Origin: a virus
DNA length: 33,847 nucleotides
Virus record (IMG/VR): IMGVR_UViG_3300015262_000024
Coordinates: 1-33,847 of that record
Reading direction: 5' to 3' (one strand)
Part shown: positions 23,171-33,337 of the stretch, piece after piece
How the letters are laid out: every line of letters starts with the position of its first letter
Numbering within the stretch: the first letter of the stretch is position 1
Notes under the pieces: generated by a model
Told to the model about the DNA's origin: nothing
Seen by the model: only the letters and a program-made list of their open reading frames with translations
Databases searched by the model: none
Made by a program: the position numbers and the translations under genes

Positions 23171-23992
23171 ATGAGCATCATCGGAACGCTTCCCGCCAAC
23201 CTGCAGAACGGCACGATCGCCGACGCGTCGCAGGTCATGGCCGACCTGAATTACATCGCCAACCAGGTGAACGCGAATGCCTTGGCTACTGCAGCCCTGA
23301 CAACCGCCATGGCCGCGGCGGGGCTCGGCGCGCTCGTCAACATCCAGGTGCTGTTGGCATCCGGTACCTACACGCCGTCCGCGAATGCCAACAGCGCGAT
23401 TGTGGCCGGCGTCGGGGCGGGTGCGGCCGGCGGTGGCACGAGCGCCGTTTCGCCGGGCCCAGCCGTTCCTGTCGCCGGTTCCGGCGGCGGCTCGGGAACC
23501 GTCGGGGTGATCTGGATTCCGTCGGGCCTGACCACGCAAGCCGTGACGATCGGAGCCGGCGGAACTGGCGTGGCAGGGTCTGGCGGAAACAACGGCGGTC
23601 AATCCAGTTTCGGAGGGCTGCTGATTCTTCCGGGTGGACTGGGTGGTCTCCTTGGCGGCGGTAACCCGGGATCCGGCACAGCCGCGCTCGGCGCGGCGCC
23701 TCCGCAATTGCCGGCCGCGCCGAGCGGCTCGGGGATTTTTCTCTACTCGACTCAAGGTGAACCCGGGATGCCCGGCCTGGACTTCCCCAACAACTCTCTG
23801 GGCGGTAGGGGTGGGAATAGCCCGTTCGGTTCAGGCGGTACGGGAGGTGTGGGTGGCACGACGACCAATGGCACGAACGGAAACGGTCGAGGAGCGGGCG
23901 GCGCCGGCGGCGCGATTTACTCCTCCGGGGTTTCGGGAACGGCCGGGTTTAACGGGACTGCGGCAGCGTTCATCGTTTTCGAGTTGGTTTAG
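23171..23992 (+). CDS. Glycine-rich tail fibre-type protein (273 aa)
   Basis: The ATG at 23171 follows AGGGGTG; a GTG at 23165 is in frame. The N-terminus (SIIGTLPANLQNGTIADASQVMADLNYIANQVN) is the tail-binding start I recall in phage fibre proteins. Residues about 70-270 are dominated by glycine runs (GAGAAGGGTSAV, GGSGGGSGTV-type, GGTGGVGGTTTNGTN), ending AAAFIVFELV, a common end for glycine-rich fibre tips. It may bind host receptors. Low-complexity sequence makes homology unreliable. Confidence 0.7.
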   Translation: MSIIGTLPANLQNGTIADASQVMADLNYIANQVNANALATAALTTAMAAAGLGALVNIQVLLASGTYTPSANANSAIVAGVGAGAAGGGTSAVSPGPAVPVAGSGGGSGTVGVIWIPSGLTTQAVTIGAGGTGVAGSGGNNGGQSSFGGLLILPGGLGGLLGGGNPGSGTAALGAAPPQLPAAPSGSGIFLYSTQGEPGMPGLDFPNNSLGGRGGNSPFGSGGTGGVGGTTTNGTNGNGRGAGGAGGAIYSSGVSGTAGFNGTAAAFIVFELV

Positions 23993-24036
23993 CCAAGGGA
24001 AACAAAACCACAATTCGCACAACTATCGGGGCAACC

Positions 24037-24225
24037 ATGGGCAATCGAACACTCACCGAAGACGACGTCAAGGCGATCGCCGAGCAGATCGAAAGCGGCA
24101 TCACTCAGCGTTTCCAGCTCAATGTCGGCCGGGGGATTCTCGGTCTGGCGTGGCGCGTTTTCATTTACGCCCTGATCGCAGTCGCAGCTTACGGTGCGGG
24201 CGGCGGGCTCAAGAAGTTCTTCTAG
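24037..24225 (+). CDS. Small single-span membrane protein (62 aa)
   Basis: A charged N-terminal helix (EDDVKAIAEQIESGITQRF) precedes one transmembrane helix (LAWRVFIYALIAVAAYGAGG, residues about 37-56) and a basic end KKFF. It begins the lysis cassette just upstream of the endolysin, so it may be a holin-like or antiholin protein; orientation would be N-in. The classic holin of the cassette is the 3TM protein further down. The stop is TAG. Confidence 0.6.
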   Translation: MGNRTLTEDDVKAIAEQIESGITQRFQLNVGRGILGLAWRVFIYALIAVAAYGAGGGLKKFF

Positions 24226-24234
24226 GAGATGGAC

Positions 24235-24453
24235 ATGCTGGAATCGATCAAATCCGCCATCGAGGCGCGTTTCTAGGCACTGGCGAACGATGGCCGTGCC
24301 TTCGTCGACAAGGTCGAGGAAGTCGTCGGTCTGGGCAACGCTGCGAAGGAGCTCGCCGATCTCGAATCGCGCGTGACGTCGATCATCACCGATGCCGAGG
24401 CTACCGCCGAGCAGAAGGTCGAACAGATCCTGCATGCGGTGGGCAAGCTGTGA
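24235..24453 (+). pseudogene. Small lysis-cassette gene interrupted by an in-frame amber codon
   Basis: The ATG at 24235 follows GGAG at six bases and gives MLESIKSAIEARF, then TAG at 24274, after which the frame stays open for 58 more codons (ALANDGRAFVDKVEEVVGLG... to ILHAVGKL) and ends in TGA at 24451, which overlaps the endolysin start. The open C-part has normal late-operon codon use and a helical pattern, so it is the rest of one gene. A single CAG (Gln) or GAG to TAG change would explain it. No in-frame restart codon is close. Amber is used as a normal stop at 8697, 21542 and 24223, so genome-wide recoding is unlikely. Sequencing error is possible. Confidence 0.7.
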
Positions 24454-24932
24454 GCAGCTTTGACGACGCCTTCGCAGCCCTGATGGGAAACGAGGGCGGG
24501 TACTCGAACAACCCGGCCGACCCCGGCGGCGAGACGATGTGGGGCGTCACGGCCCGCGTCGCGCGTGCGAACGGGTACGGCGGCGACATGCGTTCGATGC
24601 CGCAGGAAACGGCGCGGTTGATCGCGAAGCGGGTCTACTGGGATCCGTACTACTGCGATCAATTCGATCCGCGCGTGGCGTTCCAGGTGTTTGATGCCGC
24701 GTACAACGGCGGACTGCCGGTGACCTGGCTGCAGGAGGCTGCGGGCCTGAAGCCCGACGGCCGAATCGGACCAGTCACGATCGCCGCAGTGAACGCGACG
24801 GATCCGCTGCGCGTCGTCGCGCGGTTCCTTGCGTACCGGCTCAAGTACATGGCGGACCTGCACAACTGGCCGGCGTTCAGCCACGGGTGGGCAAACCGCA
24901 TCGCCAACAACCTTTTGAAGGCAACGTCATGA
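24450..24932 (+). CDS. GH108-family endolysin (160 aa)
   Basis: A GTG start overlaps the previous stop (GTGA). It has the GH108 signature NEGGYSNNPADPGGETMWGVT (residues 14-34) with catalytic glutamate E15, then the VYWDPYYCDQFDPRVAFQVFDAAYN motif and a PG-binding-3-type tail around LQEAAGLKPDGRIGPVT. GH108 enzymes cleave the peptidoglycan glycan strand. No signal peptide or SAR helix is evident, so it should depend on a holin for release. The length is normal for the family. Confidence 0.85.
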   Translation: MSSFDDAFAALMGNEGGYSNNPADPGGETMWGVTARVARANGYGGDMRSMPQETARLIAKRVYWDPYYCDQFDPRVAFQVFDAAYNGGLPVTWLQEAAGLKPDGRIGPVTIAAVNATDPLRVVARFLAYRLKYMADLHNWPAFSHGWANRIANNLLKATS

Positions 24933-25393
24933 AGAGTATTTGTGAGCGTTTCTGGGAAAAGGTTGATGTGCTCGTTGACGACCAGTGCTGGGAATGGATC
25001 GCGTCAAGATTCCCGAGTGGATATGGCCAGTTCCAGATGGACGGGCGTCCTCATCGCGCTAATCGAGTGGCATTTTGGTTGGTGCATGGGCACTGGCCGA
25101 TCGTTTGTCGTCACGAGTGCGACAACCCCGGTTGCGTGAACCCCAAGCATCTTTTGGATGGTTCGCACAAAGACAACCGCAACGATGCTGTCGTAAGAAA
25201 CCGAGCGAGATTTTCGTTGCCTGGAGAAGGGAATTGGAACTGCAAGCTGAGCGATGAACAAGTTCGGTCTTTGAGATCTCTTCGAGGGGCTGTTTCTGAG
25301 CGAAGAGCCGCAATGATTTTTGGTGTTAGCCGCGCCCAGATCGGAAGGATTTGGCGCGGTGAACGCCGCTCCAATATTTTGGGAGCCGCGTGA
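24929..25393 (+). CDS. HNH homing-type endonuclease (154 aa)
   Basis: It overlaps the endolysin stop (ATGA). CWEWIASRFPSGYGQF is the NUMOD-like lead-in common in phage HNH proteins, followed by CRHECDNPGCVNPKHL (60-75) with H62, N66, H74 and DGSHKDNRND as the HNH/zinc motif. Residues about 110-150 (LSDEQVRSLRSLRG...VSRAQIGRIWRGE) form an HTH that would guide DNA recognition. AT-richer than its neighbours and placed between endolysin and holin, so it is probably a mobile free-standing homing endonuclease. Confidence 0.85.
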   Translation: MKSICERFWEKVDVLVDDQCWEWIASRFPSGYGQFQMDGRPHRANRVAFWLVHGHWPIVCRHECDNPGCVNPKHLLDGSHKDNRNDAVVRNRARFSLPGEGNWNCKLSDEQVRSLRSLRGAVSERRAAMIFGVSRAQIGRIWRGERRSNILGAA

Positions 25394-25791
25394 TGGGATT
25401 CCTCGATCCGATTTCCGCAGTCTCCGACGTCGTCGGGAAGATCATCGACCGCGTCTGGCCGGACCCGGCGCAGGCCGCGGCAGCAAAGCTGCAGTTGCTG
25501 CAGCTTCAGCAGACGGGCGAGCTCGCGCAGATCACCGGGCAGATGCAGATCAACCAAGCTGAGGCGCAGAGCAGCGATCCGCTGCAGCATTGGCGTGGCG
25601 GGATGGGCTGGGTGTGCGTGTGCGGTTACGCATGGAACTTCGTTCTGCGCCCGGCGATGAGCGACATTTCCGCGCTTTTCGGGCATCACATCGTCCTCAC
25701 GGAAATGGACCTCACGCAGCTCGCGACGATCACGATCGGCATGCTGGGCCTCGGAGGCATGCACGTCTACCAGCAGGTCAAAGGCAAATGA
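25393..25791 (+). CDS. 3TM-type holin (132 aa)
   Basis: The ATG at 25393 has GGGAG upstream; a GTG at 25390 is the alternative. The sequence GFLDPISAVSDVVGKIIDRVWPDPAQAAAAKLQL, the QQTGELAQI helix and MGWVCVCGYAWNFVLRP membrane span (about residues 70-90), followed by a second hydrophobic segment LATITIGMLGLGGMHVY, match the pattern of the GTA-holin-3TM family. It should form membrane lesions that release the endolysin. It lies after the HNH gene, which splits it from its endolysin partner. Confidence 0.8.
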   Translation: MGFLDPISAVSDVVGKIIDRVWPDPAQAAAAKLQLLQLQQTGELAQITGQMQINQAEAQSSDPLQHWRGGMGWVCVCGYAWNFVLRPAMSDISALFGHHIVLTEMDLTQLATITIGMLGLGGMHVYQQVKGK

Positions 25792-26351
25792 ACAACCTGA
25801 TCCGCATCGGCGCCGGCATCGACACCGCACCTCTGCTGCTCGCCATCGCACGCCAGCCGGGTCTGTGGAATCGCCACACGTTTCGCACGGCGCGCGAAGA
25901 CAGTCCACACGCGGACGTATCGGACATCTGGCTGCGCTACAACGACGAGAAGCCGTACAAGGCGGCCGGCGATTACACCGCGTTCAACGACGCGCATGAC
26001 GCCGTGTTCTACCCGGAGTGGTATGCGCTGCCGCAAGTGCGACCGATCGTTTTCGGGCTGATGGCGCGGGTCGAGGGTACGCGCCTGGGCGGCATCCTGA
26101 TCACGAAGCTGCCGCCCGGCAAGCGCATCCTGCCGCACGCCGACGACAGCTGGCACGTGAGGCACTTCAACACGAAGCTGTACGTGCCGCTGCAGTCGAA
26201 TCCGAAGTGCTTGAACCGCGTCGAGAACGATGTGGTCGCGATGGCGCCGGGTGAGGTCTGGTACTTCGACAACACCAAGGAGCACGAGGTGGTGAACGAT
26301 GGCGACGACGATCGGATCACGCTGATCGTGTCGATTCGGTGCGAGAAATGA
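25788..26351 (+). CDS. Aspartyl/asparaginyl-type 2OG-Fe(II) dioxygenase (187 aa)
   Basis: It overlaps the holin stop (ATGA). The double-stranded beta-helix facial triad is visible as H117-A-D119 and H166 (TKEHEVVN), with 2-oxoglutarate-binding R176 in DRITLIVSI. The core HADDSWHVRHFNTKLYVPLQ and VVAMAPGEVWYFDN are typical of asparaginyl beta-hydroxylase-like proteins. It could hydroxylate a peptide side chain; the substrate is unknown. Enzymes of this group occur in some tailed phages; function there is not settled. It is coupled to the cupin gene that follows. Confidence 0.85.
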   Translation: MNNLIRIGAGIDTAPLLLAIARQPGLWNRHTFRTAREDSPHADVSDIWLRYNDEKPYKAAGDYTAFNDAHDAVFYPEWYALPQVRPIVFGLMARVEGTRLGGILITKLPPGKRILPHADDSWHVRHFNTKLYVPLQSNPKCLNRVENDVVAMAPGEVWYFDNTKEHEVVNDGDDDRITLIVSIRCEK

Positions 26352-26635
26352 CGATCAAGCACCACTTCACCGCAGGCGGCGTGTACGCGCGCGAGCAGAC
26401 GCTGCGCGCGGGGGAGGAAGTGCAGAAGCACGTGCACGACTACGACCACCTGAGCTATCTCGCGCACGGCACGGCGATGCTCGAGGTGGACGGGGAACTC
26501 AGCGTGCTGCACGGTCCTTGCATGCTCGAGGTGAAAGCGGGGCGGGCGCACCGCATTACCGCGCTGACGGACCTGACGTGGCTCTGCATCCATGCTGAAA
26601 GCGTGGCGGATCCCGAAACGTTGATGAAGGGGTGA
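26348..26635 (+). CDS. Small cupin-domain protein (95 aa)
   Basis: Starts at 26348, overlapping the hydroxylase stop. Cupin motif 1 is KHVHDYDHLSYLAHGTAML (27-45) with metal-ligand candidates H28, H30 and H34; motif 2 is KAGRAHRI (63-70) with H68. A single compact cupin barrel with an Fe/Mn-type centre is expected. The gene is translationally coupled to the 2OG dioxygenase, so the pair is likely one functional unit. Substrate unknown. Confidence 0.8.
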   Translation: MTIKHHFTAGGVYAREQTLRAGEEVQKHVHDYDHLSYLAHGTAMLEVDGELSVLHGPCMLEVKAGRAHRITALTDLTWLCIHAESVADPETLMKG

Positions 26636-29152: not shown

Positions 29153-30714
29153 TGGCCGGCCCGTGGGAAAAATACGCGCAGGACACGGCCGCGTCCGCTA
29201 CGGGACCGTGGGACAAGTACGGCGCTGCGCCCGCGGCAACGCCGCGCGGCCCCGTGGCACCCCTCGATCGTCTGCCGCCTGATAGCCCGGCGCCCGCCAC
29301 GGCGTCGAAGCACGCCGACACCATCGCGGAGCGCCTGCTCGGCTTGGGCAAAAGCGCGGTCGGGCTCGGCGAGGCCGGTCTGTCAACGGTGACCGGTGCG
29401 TTGGCCGCGCCCGTGGGCGCCGCATACGGCATCGGCAAGACGCTCACGAGCGGCAAGTACGGCACGCAACAAGGCATCGAAGAAGGCGACCGCGCGGGCG
29501 CTGCGCTCGCCGGCAAGCTGACGTATCAGCCGCGCACCGAGGCCGGCCGCGCCGATGTCGAGGCGCTCGGCAATTCGGGGCTGATGCATGCACTGCAGGG
29601 ATTGCCGGTCGAATCGCCGATGATTTCGCGAATCCCGGAAGTGCCACGCGGCGTGCTCGCGACCGGTGAAGGCGCAGCCGGCGCCGCGCGCGCTGGGGCG
29701 AATGCCGTCGGCCGCGGTGCCGTGCGCGCCGCTGCTCGTGCGCTGCCTGAAGTCGATCCGGAGACACTTCGGCTCGCGCGCGAGGCGCACGAGATGGGCT
29801 TCCGCTTCCGGCCGGACCAGATGTACGAGAACAAATTCGGGCGCATCGCCGGGCAGCTGTCGTCGGACGTGCCGTTCTCTGGCGAGACGTCGGGCGCGAA
29901 CCAGCGCGTGTTCAACCAGCGCTTGATCCAGGCGATCGGTGGTGACGGCGACAAGCTGACGCGCCAGGTGTACGCCAACGCGATGAAGAAGTCGGGGACC
30001 GAGATCGACGCGATCACGGCCGCCCACAGCATCCCGGTCGACAACGCGTTCCTGAACCGCCTGCAGCGTGCGAAGGGCAACCAGCTGCCGGAAGTGCAGG
30101 GCGTCGTGCAGGGGTACATCGACGATCTGGAGGGGCTCGCCGGCCCGCGCCAGACGCTCGCCGGTGGTGGCGCGACGTCGGCTGCGCGACAGCTCGATGG
30201 GGCGAAGCTGCGCCCTTTCCTGACGAAGCTGAAGTCAACGATCCGCGGCACCTCCAATGGCGACCTGCGGCACGCGCTGAGCGATCTGCAGGGCGAAATC
30301 GAAGACGCATTCCTGCCGCAGTTGTCGGCCGATGACGCGGCGCGCTATGCAGCCGCCCGCCGGCAGTACGCGATCGGGAAAACGATCGAGCCGCTCGTGG
30401 CGAAGTCGCCGGGCGGCAACATCAGCCCGAAGGCATTGATGGGCGCGGTAACGTCGAATGCGTACGGCAAGCGCGCGATGGCGATGGGCCAGGGCGGCGA
30501 ACTGGGCAAGCTGGCGGACATTGGTTCACTGTTTCTGCGCGAGCCCGGCACGTCGAACACTGCCGAGCGCGGCATCGTGGCCGGTCTGCTCGGCGGCGCG
30601 GGGTTCGGGGTCAATCCAGCCGCCGCCGCGGTGCCTTGGGCGGCCGCCAATCTGTACAACCGCGCTGGCCCTGCCATCACCGAACAACTCCTTCAGCGGC
30701 CGCCTACCCCATGA
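29152..30714 (+). CDS. Large internal virion protein (520 aa)
   Basis: It begins MAGPWEKYAQDTAASATGPW with the motif GPW(E/D)KY twice in the first 25 residues; I recall this repeat at the N-termini of large phage internal proteins. Hydrophobic, alanine/glycine-rich segments (LGKSAVGLGEAGLSTVTGAL and GIVAGLLGGAGFGVNPAAAAV) could span or insert in membranes. The middle (about 200-410) is helical. It probably enters the host with the genome. It overlaps the next gene at ATGA. Confidence 0.65.
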   Translation: MAGPWEKYAQDTAASATGPWDKYGAAPAATPRGPVAPLDRLPPDSPAPATASKHADTIAERLLGLGKSAVGLGEAGLSTVTGALAAPVGAAYGIGKTLTSGKYGTQQGIEEGDRAGAALAGKLTYQPRTEAGRADVEALGNSGLMHALQGLPVESPMISRIPEVPRGVLATGEGAAGAARAGANAVGRGAVRAAARALPEVDPETLRLAREAHEMGFRFRPDQMYENKFGRIAGQLSSDVPFSGETSGANQRVFNQRLIQAIGGDGDKLTRQVYANAMKKSGTEIDAITAAHSIPVDNAFLNRLQRAKGNQLPEVQGVVQGYIDDLEGLAGPRQTLAGGGATSAARQLDGAKLRPFLTKLKSTIRGTSNGDLRHALSDLQGEIEDAFLPQLSADDAARYAAARRQYAIGKTIEPLVAKSPGGNISPKALMGAVTSNAYGKRAMAMGQGGELGKLADIGSLFLREPGTSNTAERGIVAGLLGGAGFGVNPAAAAVPWAAANLYNRAGPAITEQLLQRPPTP

Positions 30715-32054
30715 GAATCCTCGCGATCGACGTCGGTTCGAACTGCCTCGATTGGCTGATGCGCTGCCAGGAGTGGGGGCACCAGGTTCTCTGGTACGAC
30801 AAGCCACGCCCGGACGGCACCGATCGTCATGCGGGCGAAGGCATCGTGCCGAAGATCCGCGACTACGACGAACTGCGGCGGAAGTGGCTCGGCTGGGCGG
30901 ACCTGATCTACACGCCCGACAACGTCAGCTACCTCGACATGCTCGAGCCGTACCGCCGGATTGGGTACCCGATCTACGGCTGCAACTTGGCGGCCGTCGA
31001 ATGGGAGCTTGATCGCGAGGTGGGGCAGAAGGTCATGGAAGAGTGCGGGATGCGCATCATCCCCGGCAAGACTTTCCATGACTACGAGTCCGCGATCGCC
31101 TACGTGAAGAAGCAGGGCAAGGCGTTCGTGTCGAAGCCGTCGGGCGACGGAGAACGCGCGATGTCCTACGTCGCCGACAGTGCGGCCGACATGGTCTACA
31201 TGCTCGGGCGCTGGAACAAGATCGACAAGTACCGGTCGGCTGCGCGCAAGGACGGCTTCATACTGCAGGAGAAGATCAGCGGTATCGAAATGGCCGTGGG
31301 CGGTTTCTTCGGGCCCGATGGATGGTCGCGCGGCTGGGTCGAGAACTGGGAAAACAAGAAGCTGATGAACGGCGACCTCGGCGTGAACACCGGCGAGATG
31401 GGCACCACGGTGCGCGTCGTCCGGCAATCGAAGCTTGCCGACGAGGTGCTGAAACCCGCTACCGAACACCTGAAGCGCATCGGCTACGTCGGCTACGTCG
31501 ACGTGAATTGCATGATCCCGACCGACGGGAAGGGCCCGTATCCGCTCGAGTGGACGATGCGCGACGGCTGGCCGATTCGCCACAACCTGACCGCGCTGAT
31601 CGAGGGCGATCCGGCGCAGTGGATGGCCGACAAGATCCAAGGCCGCGACACGCTGAAGATCCGCATGGATGAGGTGTGCATCTCGGTGCTGATGGCGCTG
31701 CCGGACTTCCCGTACTCGAAGATCACGAACAAGGAGTTGTGCGGCATCCCGATCTACGGCGCCGAGGACACGGAGCATCTGCACTTCTCCGAGGTAATGA
31801 TGGGCACGGCGCCACGTGAGGTGAACGGCAAGGTAGTTGACCTGCCGGGGCCCGTGACGGCCGGCGATTACGTGCTGATCGCTACGGGCACCGGAGAGAC
31901 GATCACTGGCGCACGCCGGTCGGCGTACAGCGCGATCAAGAAAGTGAAGATCCCGAACAGCCCGTTCTACCGCACCGACATCGGCGTCGGCCGGCTGAAG
32001 AAGCAGCTGCCCGAACTGCAGGCCATGGGCTACGCGAAAGGGCTGAGCTACTGA
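30711..32054 (+). CDS. PurD-like ATP-grasp ligase (447 aa)
   Basis: The core matches the ATP-grasp fold of GAR synthetase (PurD): FVSKPSGDGER with K142, QEKISGIEMAVGGFF with E187, PLEWTMRDGWPI (E280; PurD has E-F-N, here E-W-T) and a C-terminal ITGARRSAYSAIKKVK plus RTDIGVGRL that mirrors PurD's end. The N-terminus (MRILAIDVGSN) lacks PurD's GGREHA motif, so the acceptor is probably not phosphoribosylamine. The gene overlaps the preceding virion-protein gene and lies in the late operon, unlike a purine enzyme. It should ligate a carboxylate to an amine with ATP; substrates unknown. Confidence 0.8.
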   Translation: MRILAIDVGSNCLDWLMRCQEWGHQVLWYDKPRPDGTDRHAGEGIVPKIRDYDELRRKWLGWADLIYTPDNVSYLDMLEPYRRIGYPIYGCNLAAVEWELDREVGQKVMEECGMRIIPGKTFHDYESAIAYVKKQGKAFVSKPSGDGERAMSYVADSAADMVYMLGRWNKIDKYRSAARKDGFILQEKISGIEMAVGGFFGPDGWSRGWVENWENKKLMNGDLGVNTGEMGTTVRVVRQSKLADEVLKPATEHLKRIGYVGYVDVNCMIPTDGKGPYPLEWTMRDGWPIRHNLTALIEGDPAQWMADKIQGRDTLKIRMDEVCISVLMALPDFPYSKITNKELCGIPIYGAEDTEHLHFSEVMMGTAPREVNGKVVDLPGPVTAGDYVLIATGTGETITGARRSAYSAIKKVKIPNSPFYRTDIGVGRLKKQLPELQAMGYAKGLSY

Positions 32055-32055
32055 A

Positions 32056-32589
32056 ATGAGACGATCCATGCGCGCCGGCTTGATTTCCGAAGAATCAATC
32101 AAGACCGCCCTGACCGAAGCCAAGGGAGACATCTTCCTGGCTGCGTCGACGCTTGACTGCACCGCCCACGAGCTGGACGGGTACATTCGTGCATCTGCCG
32201 AGCTTCAGGGATTCGCCGCGGCGATCGAGAGGGTCAAGGTCGATCCGTCTTACTCGCGCATGAGCAGCGAGCAGTTTGACGCTCGAGTAGCGGATCTCAC
32301 CCGCGCATACAAAGTGGTCGGCCTTGAGGAACTTCACGGTCTGGCGACGATGAATCACAAGGACAGTGCAGCGATGGCGAAGGTCAAGCTGCAGGCTGCG
32401 ATCGCTCTGCGCGGCGGTGAACAGCGCGCCGTCGGCGATCGAGAGATCGAGCATGCTCTGTCCGAGCTCAACCAGCTGTATCACGCCAACGCTCCACGTA
32501 TCAAAGAGATCCGCCAGACCGTCGTCAAGCTTGAAGATGGTCGGGAAGCGACTCAACGAGTGATCGAACTTCAGCAAGATCAGCAATAG
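32056..32589 (+). CDS. Candidate small terminase subunit (177 aa)
   Basis: The N-terminal half holds a Fis-like helix-turn-helix (SIKTALTEAKGDIFLAAST...TAHELDGYI), followed by charged coiled segments and an end SELNQLYHANAPRIKEIRQTV; MNHKDSAAMAKVKLQAAIAL is the middle helix. A DNA-binding helical bundle of about 170 residues that could oligomerise fits small terminases such as those of N4-like phages. It is the last gene of the late operon, whereas terL is the first, which would bring them together only if the genome is circular or redundant. A regulator is the main alternative. The weak start at 32056 could be 32068. Confidence 0.5.
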   Translation: MRRSMRAGLISEESIKTALTEAKGDIFLAASTLDCTAHELDGYIRASAELQGFAAAIERVKVDPSYSRMSSEQFDARVADLTRAYKVVGLEELHGLATMNHKDSAAMAKVKLQAAIALRGGEQRAVGDREIEHALSELNQLYHANAPRIKEIRQTVVKLEDGREATQRVIELQQDQQ

Positions 32590-33337
32590 CCTGCAGGCGC
32601 TTTCGTTCGAGCAGGTCCCAATCGGGTTCATCGCTTCGGTACACCTGCCACTTCGTCAAGGAAATGTGCCCGCGGCGTGCCATCTCCTTGATGGCGGCCT
32701 TGTGACCTTCTTCGCGTGCCACCTTCTTCGACTCCGTCCGTCCGGACCCGATCCAATCCCAAGCGGGTACCAATCCGGGTGCGTCAGGCGCCAACCGCGG
32801 ACGCAGTTCCCATTCCTCGACTGGCTTCAGACTCTTGCGCATGTATGTCACGCGCTGGCGAGGAATTCCTGTCTCGGCCTCAAGTTGCTCGTCCGTCAAT
32901 CGTCGTCCGCGGCATGCGCTCCAGATCGCGCGCAAATTTTCGGCGCGCGGCGTGCGCAGGTCGATGCATTCCTCGTGTACGCGCCAGGTGTGCGGGACCG
33001 GGATCACGGTGTATTCGGAAGTATTGGCCTGAGAGCGCGTCAGCCGGTCCATCGTCATCGGGCATTCCACGAATACGAGGACGTCCGCCGGGCCGGCCCG
33101 ATCCGAATACGTGTAGCGATCAAGTAAGACGCCGCCGTTTTCCCGCCATCTCACCAGTTGTCCGTCGCTCGCGCGCTCCCACCACGCCCACACATAGACG
33201 GGGAGATCGGCGATCGACGCGCTCTTGAAGAACGCCGGCTTGATCGTTGTGTATCCGCGGTTCACCAGCACATGAGTGAAATCGGCGAATGCCTTGCGGA
33301 TCGAGCCGGCAGTATCAGAAGTCGAATAGAGCTTCAC
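32525..33337 (-). CDS. HTH-containing protein of unknown function (270 aa)
   Basis: A GTG start at 33337 is used; its ribosome-binding site is weak. Residues 1-135 form a mixed alpha/beta domain (FADFTHVLVNRGYTTIKPAFF, VYVWAWWERASDG, VLVFVECPM) and residues about 145-170 are a clear helix-turn-helix (LTDEQLEAETGIPRQRVTYMRKSL). The rest is basic/helical. The 3' end overlaps the small terminase candidate by 65 bases tail to tail. It is probably a minus-strand regulator or accessory gene, co-transcribed with the upstream lipoprotein. I do not recognise the family. Confidence 0.65.
   Translation of the reverse strand: MKLYSTSDTAGSIRKAFADFTHVLVNRGYTTIKPAFFKSASIADLPVYVWAWWERASDGQLVRWRENGGVLLDRYTYSDRAGPADVLVFVECPMTMDRLTRSQANTSEYTVIPVPHTWRVHEECIDLRTPRAENLRAIWSACRGRRLTDEQLEAETGIPRQRVTYMRKSLKPVEEWELRPRLAPDAPGLVPAWDWIGSGRTESKKVAREEGHKAAIKEMARRGHISLTKWQVYRSDEPDWDLLERKRLQAIADLAEVRSLVESLPDHLQA

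Follow-up and report, generated by a model that had tools for sequence, protein, structure and literature searches.

Introduction

PurD (TIGR00877; PDB 2YW2, 2QK4, 2XCL), the glycinamide ribonucleotide synthetase, consists of an N-terminal, an ATP-grasp and a C-terminal domain. In the A. aeolicus enzyme, ATP is coordinated by K103, K143, E185, E192 and K214, glycine by D212, R287 and E292, and magnesium by E100 and K214 (PMC8880213). Ligases of the ATP-grasp and amidoligase type are also encoded by phages and are predicted to modify proteins or the cell wall (PMC4431377, PMC3890496, PMC10580990). The families defined by Iyer, Burroughs and Aravind include the R2K/CDC123 clade, the COOH-NH2 ligases and Amidoligase_2. 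None of these three papers describes a PurD-like phage family, and our literature search found no paper on one.

Here we analyse a stretch of 33,847 nucleotides (the window), a Burkholderia-type prophage that belongs to a large group of phages carrying a PurD-like ligase. Previous work has covered PurD, ATP-grasp enzymes and other amidoligases of phages; this PurD-like phage subfamily, however, appears to be undescribed, as judged from the literature searched, PHROGs and viral structures.

Results

The ligase gene closes the particle-building module

The ligase gene overlaps the last ejection-protein-like gene and lies at the end of the particle-building genes (Table 1). The 520-residue upstream protein matches the 'DNA ejection protein' family PHROG 26400 (1e-26), and the shared ATGA suggests that translation of the ligase is coupled to that of the upstream gene. 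The gene boundaries and the overlap with an internal virion protein gene, both proposed in a preliminary description made from the sequence, agree with these results. The 177-residue gene downstream has no match in Pfam or PHROG; it also comes after the ligase in the Burkholderia-type clade.

Several other genes of the window deserve a comment. The HNH endonuclease-like gene is poorly conserved at its position among relatives and is possibly a homing endonuclease insertion. The hydroxylase and cupin genes of the late operon are both well conserved (dN/dS 0.13 and 0.09) and are also present in some freshwater relatives. An obligate partnership of the ligase with these two genes is not supported, the hydroxylase being found in 4 of 20 distant records. 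The 270-residue gene on the opposite strand evolves fastest among the genes compared (dN/dS 0.25).

Table 1. Genes, domains and active-site motifs of the window, in window coordinates; residue numbers are those of the ligase.
Feature	Position	Strand	Basis or remark
Terminase	9801		late genes
Portal or connector	12155		late genes
Scaffold	17116		late genes
Major head protein	18448		late genes
Tail-fibre assembly	23165		late genes
Endolysin	within 23634-24932		late genes
HNH endonuclease-like gene	24887-25393	+	between endolysin and holin
Holin-like protein	25390		late genes
Aspartyl/asparaginyl hydroxylase-like gene	25788-26351	+	PF05118, 61.6 bits (cut-off 22.6)
Small cupin	26339-26635	+	after hydroxylase gene; 30.5 bits (cut-off 27.2)
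Ejection (internal virion) protein-like gene, 520 aa	29152..30714	+	directly upstream of ligase; PHROG 26400
ATGA stop/start overlap, 4 bp	30711..30714	+	ligase start on ejection-protein gene stop
PurD-like ATP-grasp ligase, 447 aa	30711..32054	+	ATG at 30711; Pfam GARS_A and GARS_C, AlphaFold2 model
DVGSN, residues 7-11	30729..30743	+	position of PurD GGREH loop, without R-E-H; alignment with host PurDs
K142, ATP-binding lysine	31134..31136	+	A. aeolicus PurD K143; 35/35
Residues 186-193 (Q186 ... E193), ATP-binding positions	31266..31289	+	PurD E185, E192
E214 and K216	31350..31358	+	PurD D212 (glycine) and K214 (ATP and Mg); 35/35 each
TGEMGT loop, residues 227-232	31389..31406	+	replaces PurD NTGGMGA
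D264, extra acidic residue, candidate metal ligand	31500..31502	+	A or G in PurD
EWTMRDGWP, residues 280-288	31548..31574	+	replaces PurD EFNCRMGDP
GARS_C-like C-terminal domain	31674..32051	+	Pfam, model, PurD alignment
Downstream gene, 177 aa	32056..32589	+	directly downstream of ligase; small-terminase-like by eye only
270-aa gene	32525-33337	-	no family assigned

The ligase is widespread and strongly constrained

A scan of IMG/VR with the single ligase protein returned 132 relatives; scans with alignments returned at least 497 and at least 561, and a wider scan 580. The gene is present in all 34 records picked by a tail gene and in all 25 picked by the capsid gene. Together the two selections comprise 44 different related phage records, all with the ligase (two cut short by a contig end), and none of these copies contains an internal stop codon. 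Of the 11 late genes compared, the ligase has the lowest median dN/dS relative to the window copy, 0.057 (the others range from 0.09 to 0.25), with 0.215 for the upstream ejection protein. Median identity is 91% for the ligase versus 56% for the adjoining ejection protein. Ligase identity resembles that of the capsid protein and mostly exceeds the value for the large terminase. The more than 500 relatives, the low dN/dS and the absence of internal stops in the 44 records exclude a chance open reading frame. The ligase is among the best-conserved proteins of these phages and is under strong purifying selection.

Two observations concern individual records. A single IMG/VR record of 79,073 bases (L263/L266, G034) contains two ligase copies, 83% and 72% identical to that of the window, and perhaps represents a tandem pair of phages or prophages, or else an assembly chimera. 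Several 'phage' records match the ligase at only 24-26% identity, one of them annotated as phosphoribosylamine--glycine ligase. These look like true purD genes, possibly from host DNA.

The protein is predicted to adopt the PurD fold

The ligase scores above the Pfam cut-offs for GARS_A (40.1 bits, cut-off 27) and GARS_C (36.2 bits, cut-off 34.8). The NCBI purD model TIGR00877 gives 92.8 bits, less than a third of its equivalog cut-off of 288. No other Pfam domain is found at E up to 1, including the phage amidoligase domains Amidoligase_2 and COOH-NH2 ligase; while the Iyer, Burroughs and Aravind families are likewise phage-encoded ligases, none of their Pfam domains occurs on this protein. 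No described phage family in PHROGs matches at E up to 0.001. In a PDB sequence search all above-noise matches were PurD, and a profile built from 31 ligase relatives found PurD entries only (1e-28).

The AlphaFold2 model (pLDDT 89.1, pTM 0.87) was compared with solved structures. Thirteen PurD entries rank first among the matches listed (Z 29.4-32.4), with an rmsd of 3.2-4.3 across 377-396 residues, and span ligase residues 1-433. The next structural group, PurK and PurT, follows at Z 23.5 and below. The rank of PurD and the gap to PurK and PurT indicate a PurD fold from the N to the C terminus. Profiles and model together place the ligase in the ATP-grasp superfamily, with a predicted GARS/PurD fold including its N and C domains. 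The preliminary description had already read it as a PurD-like ATP-grasp ligase. The best match in a viral structure library, where a weak or missing match is no proof of absence, had a TM of 0.48, and no full PurD-like architecture was found there.

The identity to PurD is about 20%. The C domain retains the YR.DIG end but differs from PurD by an insertion (about residues 340-380) and by a C-terminal extension past YRTDIG.

Catalytic residues are kept and substrate motifs are changed

Residues were mapped from A. aeolicus PurD by the PDB sequence alignment. The ATP set (K103, K143, E185, E192, K214) falls on R102, K142, Q186, E193 and K216 of the ligase, the glycine set (D212, R287, E292) on E214, R284 and I289, and the magnesium residue E100 on E99. 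Conservation was assessed in 35 representatives with less than 85% mutual identity, drawn from 146 different proteins and reaching down to 26% identity to the window ligase. E99, R102, K142, E193, E214, K216, E280, T282 and R284 are invariant. Q186 is kept in 33 representatives and E187 in 27. The ATP-grasp residues named in the preliminary description therefore hold for K142 and E280, while E187 is less well kept than Q186 and E193. The ATP-binding lysine and glutamates and the acid-binding arginine are thus shared with PurD.

The substrate motifs differ. The GGREH loop of the N domain, which belongs to the phosphoribosylamine site, is found in 16 of the 17 PurDs compared, and as GAREH in the remaining one, but is missing from the ligase. 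Likewise, NTGGMG and EFN.R.GDP occur in all 17 PurDs, while the ligase has TGEMGT and EWTMRDGWPI. In the latter motif, E280 is the metal glutamate, T282 takes the place of the metal-site asparagine, R284 corresponds to the arginine for the acid substrate, and the GDPE end, which binds glycine in PurD, is gone (DGWPI). G228, E229 and G231 of the TGEMGT loop, as well as G286 and P288, are present in all 35 representatives. The position of the glycine-ammonium residue E292, I289 in the window ligase, is L, T, I or S across the family, and D290 of the A. aeolicus enzyme falls on W287. Both the loss of the N-terminal substrate motif and the N-to-T change had been noticed earlier; the invariance of T282 makes the latter a signature of the family.

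The ligase has a further acidic residue, D264, in 34 of 35 representatives (N in the other one). We take an acidic residue at this position to be a metal ligand in ATP-grasp enzymes such as D-Ala-D-Ala ligase, and by this analogy D264 may compensate for the N-to-T change.

Since the residues for ATP, magnesium and the acid are kept or conservatively replaced, while GGREH, NTGGMG and GDPE are lost, activation of an acid should work, but probably with an acid other than glycine and an acceptor other than phosphoribosylamine.

A clade separate from PurD

We calculated a tree from 15 phage proteins, three plasmid-borne cellular relatives (Halarchaeum, Roseomonas, Sphingomonas) and 17 PurDs. Phage proteins and cellular relatives split from the PurDs at 100/100; this split involves long branches, and joins of this kind prompt a warning from the tree program. 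The phage proteins group together at 99/97.

The Halarchaeum protein WP_123078225.1 ('phosphoribosylglycinamide synthetase C domain-containing protein') and the hypothetical Roseomonas protein WP_207415351.1 belong to the same clade as the ligase. They differ in being only 27-31% identical to the window ligase and in lying on plasmids, outside any virion operon. The neighbourhoods of the three plasmid-borne relatives are unrelated and indicate no single pathway. Because the cellular relatives have the same TGEMGT and EFT (EFT.R.G.P) motifs as the phage proteins, the N-to-T change marks a subfamily and is older than this phage. Judged from these motifs, it is the sign of a distinct clade and not of decay.

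The clade comprises hundreds of phage genes together with rare haloarchaeal and alphaproteobacterial relatives. Among several hundred Pseudomonadota genomes, sampled by class, family and phylum, the family was found at the cut-offs used in few genomes only, three of which are already known prophage carriers. The Sphingomonas daechungensis plasmid relative (L294:11483-12789) is annotated as two ORFs, either because the copy is disrupted or through a sequencing error, and its end overlaps a SET-domain gene.

A constant place beside variable virion genes

At 106 loci the overlap between the ligase start and the stop of a large upstream gene is exactly 4 bp. At many others the ligase begins within a few bases of the upstream gene, and part of the Burkholderia-type clade has 80-220 bp between the two genes, with no overlap. 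Most of the more distant loci also show the -4 spacing. The position is kept in freshwater phages without detectable counterparts of the window's capsid, portal, tail and ejection proteins. In distant phages the gene preceding the ligase reaches about 1,960 aa. Giant genes directly upstream in freshwater phages (L357:4122-10004, 1,960 aa; L343:5445-10004, 1,519 aa; L110:6915-10004, 1,029 aa) have no Pfam match; in PHROGs they show only local matches to functionally unassigned families, or no match.

Among the most divergent phages (clade L316-L323), the ligase adjoins a virion structural protein (PHROG 437), an SU10-adaptor-like protein (a weak match, below its cut-off) is also beside it, and an internal virion protein (PHROG 511) is encoded shortly downstream. 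In many freshwater phages a lysozyme gene is close downstream. Apart from the ligase, the two main phage lineages detectably share few genes, namely those for cupin, hydroxylase, holin and a lysozyme-type protein, and a terminase that matches weakly. The ligase itself served to find the distant loci, so the gene may have been transferred between phages. If it did move, its constant place would be all the more notable.

The neighbouring ejection protein varies freely. Ligases 97-98% identical to that of the window adjoin ejection proteins only 54-59% identical (L011, L021, L024), and beside several ligases 89-94% identical no homologue of the window's ejection protein is detectable (L027, L028, L029, L032-L035). 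The C-termini of the proteins upstream of the ligase share no motif, and no virion protein detectably common to all lineages, as a shared target, was found. Since the type and C-terminus of the ejection protein change while the ligase is near-constant, we consider the adjacent protein an improbable dedicated target.

Discussion

The PurD-like fold, the catalytic residues, the separate clade, the purifying selection and the fixed place in the virion module emerge from computation. A working active site, changed substrate sites, the strongest constraint and the constant place point to an enzyme needed late. Its position last among the particle-building genes and its high conservation indicate that the family probably does an important chemical job late in infection. 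On balance we consider it probable that the protein has the PurD fold and is catalytically competent as an ATP-grasp ligase, but has ceased to be a glycinamide ribonucleotide synthetase and acts late, serving particle assembly or ejection.

By homology, a carboxylic acid would be activated with Mg-ATP to an acyl phosphate, and the acyl group would then be passed to an amine or similar nucleophile; acid and acceptor would both differ from glycine and phosphoribosylamine. The ligase may be expressed late, by coupling to the last ejection-protein gene, and act in particle assembly or ejection, and we lean towards such a particle-related role. Most likely, a small acid would be attached to a virion component via a short or surface-exposed site, not to one dedicated partner. 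The fuller proposal is tentative: the family may form a widespread virion-module class of re-purposed PurD-fold ligases that link a small acid to a component of the virion or of ejection and are indispensable to large groups of podovirus-like phages. What stands of the preliminary reading is an ATP-grasp ligase that resembles PurD, lies in a virion operon, has an altered substrate site and is distinct from ordinary PurD. Modification of a virion peptide, which it also suggested, is possible, and no more so than a late substrate in the host or among small molecules; the adjacent ejection protein, variable or absent beside a near-constant ligase, is disfavoured as the dedicated substrate.

Less likely, in our estimate, is that the ligase acts late on a small molecule or on a structure of the host, such as a nucleotide or a precursor of the envelope or peptidoglycan, with no relation to the particle and with the place in the operon setting only the timing. 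Most ATP-grasp enzymes ligate small molecules. No ejection or tail protein is nearly as conserved as the ligase, which is indifferent to the ejection protein preceding it; the replacement of that protein by unrelated types and the lack of a common virion target fit such a substrate at least as well as a virion component. The lysozyme gene of many freshwater phages agrees with an action on the host. However, across very different phages the ligase stays in the virion module and not by metabolic or early genes, and no substrate pathway is seen beside it.

It is improbable that the ligase is packaged and ejected with the internal proteins to act in the newly infected cell. While its position next to an ejection-protein gene in unrelated lineages, with 4 bp shared, would suit this, no packaging signal is apparent, and the overlap accounts for co-expression without packaging. 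Still less credible is a catalytically dead relative retained as a structural or regulatory protein. The metal-site asparagine is indeed changed to threonine, but cellular relatives carry the same threonine, a new acidic residue (D264) is present at the metal site, and all other catalytic residues are invariant down to 26% identity; this set and the dN/dS lead us to reject a decayed enzyme. An ordinary phage-captured host purD, boosting purine synthesis as an auxiliary metabolic gene, shares the fold and domains but is rejected on score, motifs and tree, and the Paraburkholderia genomes tested that carry the prophage (3/3) have their own intact purD.

Hundreds of phages thus keep an unannotated ligase inside their particle-building module, which databases would call purD or nothing. 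If it modifies the virion, the assembly of these phages would generally include enzymatic tailoring; if its action is on the host, it would mark a late-stage target common to very different phages. Either way, the family cautions against labelling PurD-like phage genes as auxiliary purine genes, and a simple sequence test can be applied: N-to-T at the metal site, TGE[MQ]GT and a missing GGREH.
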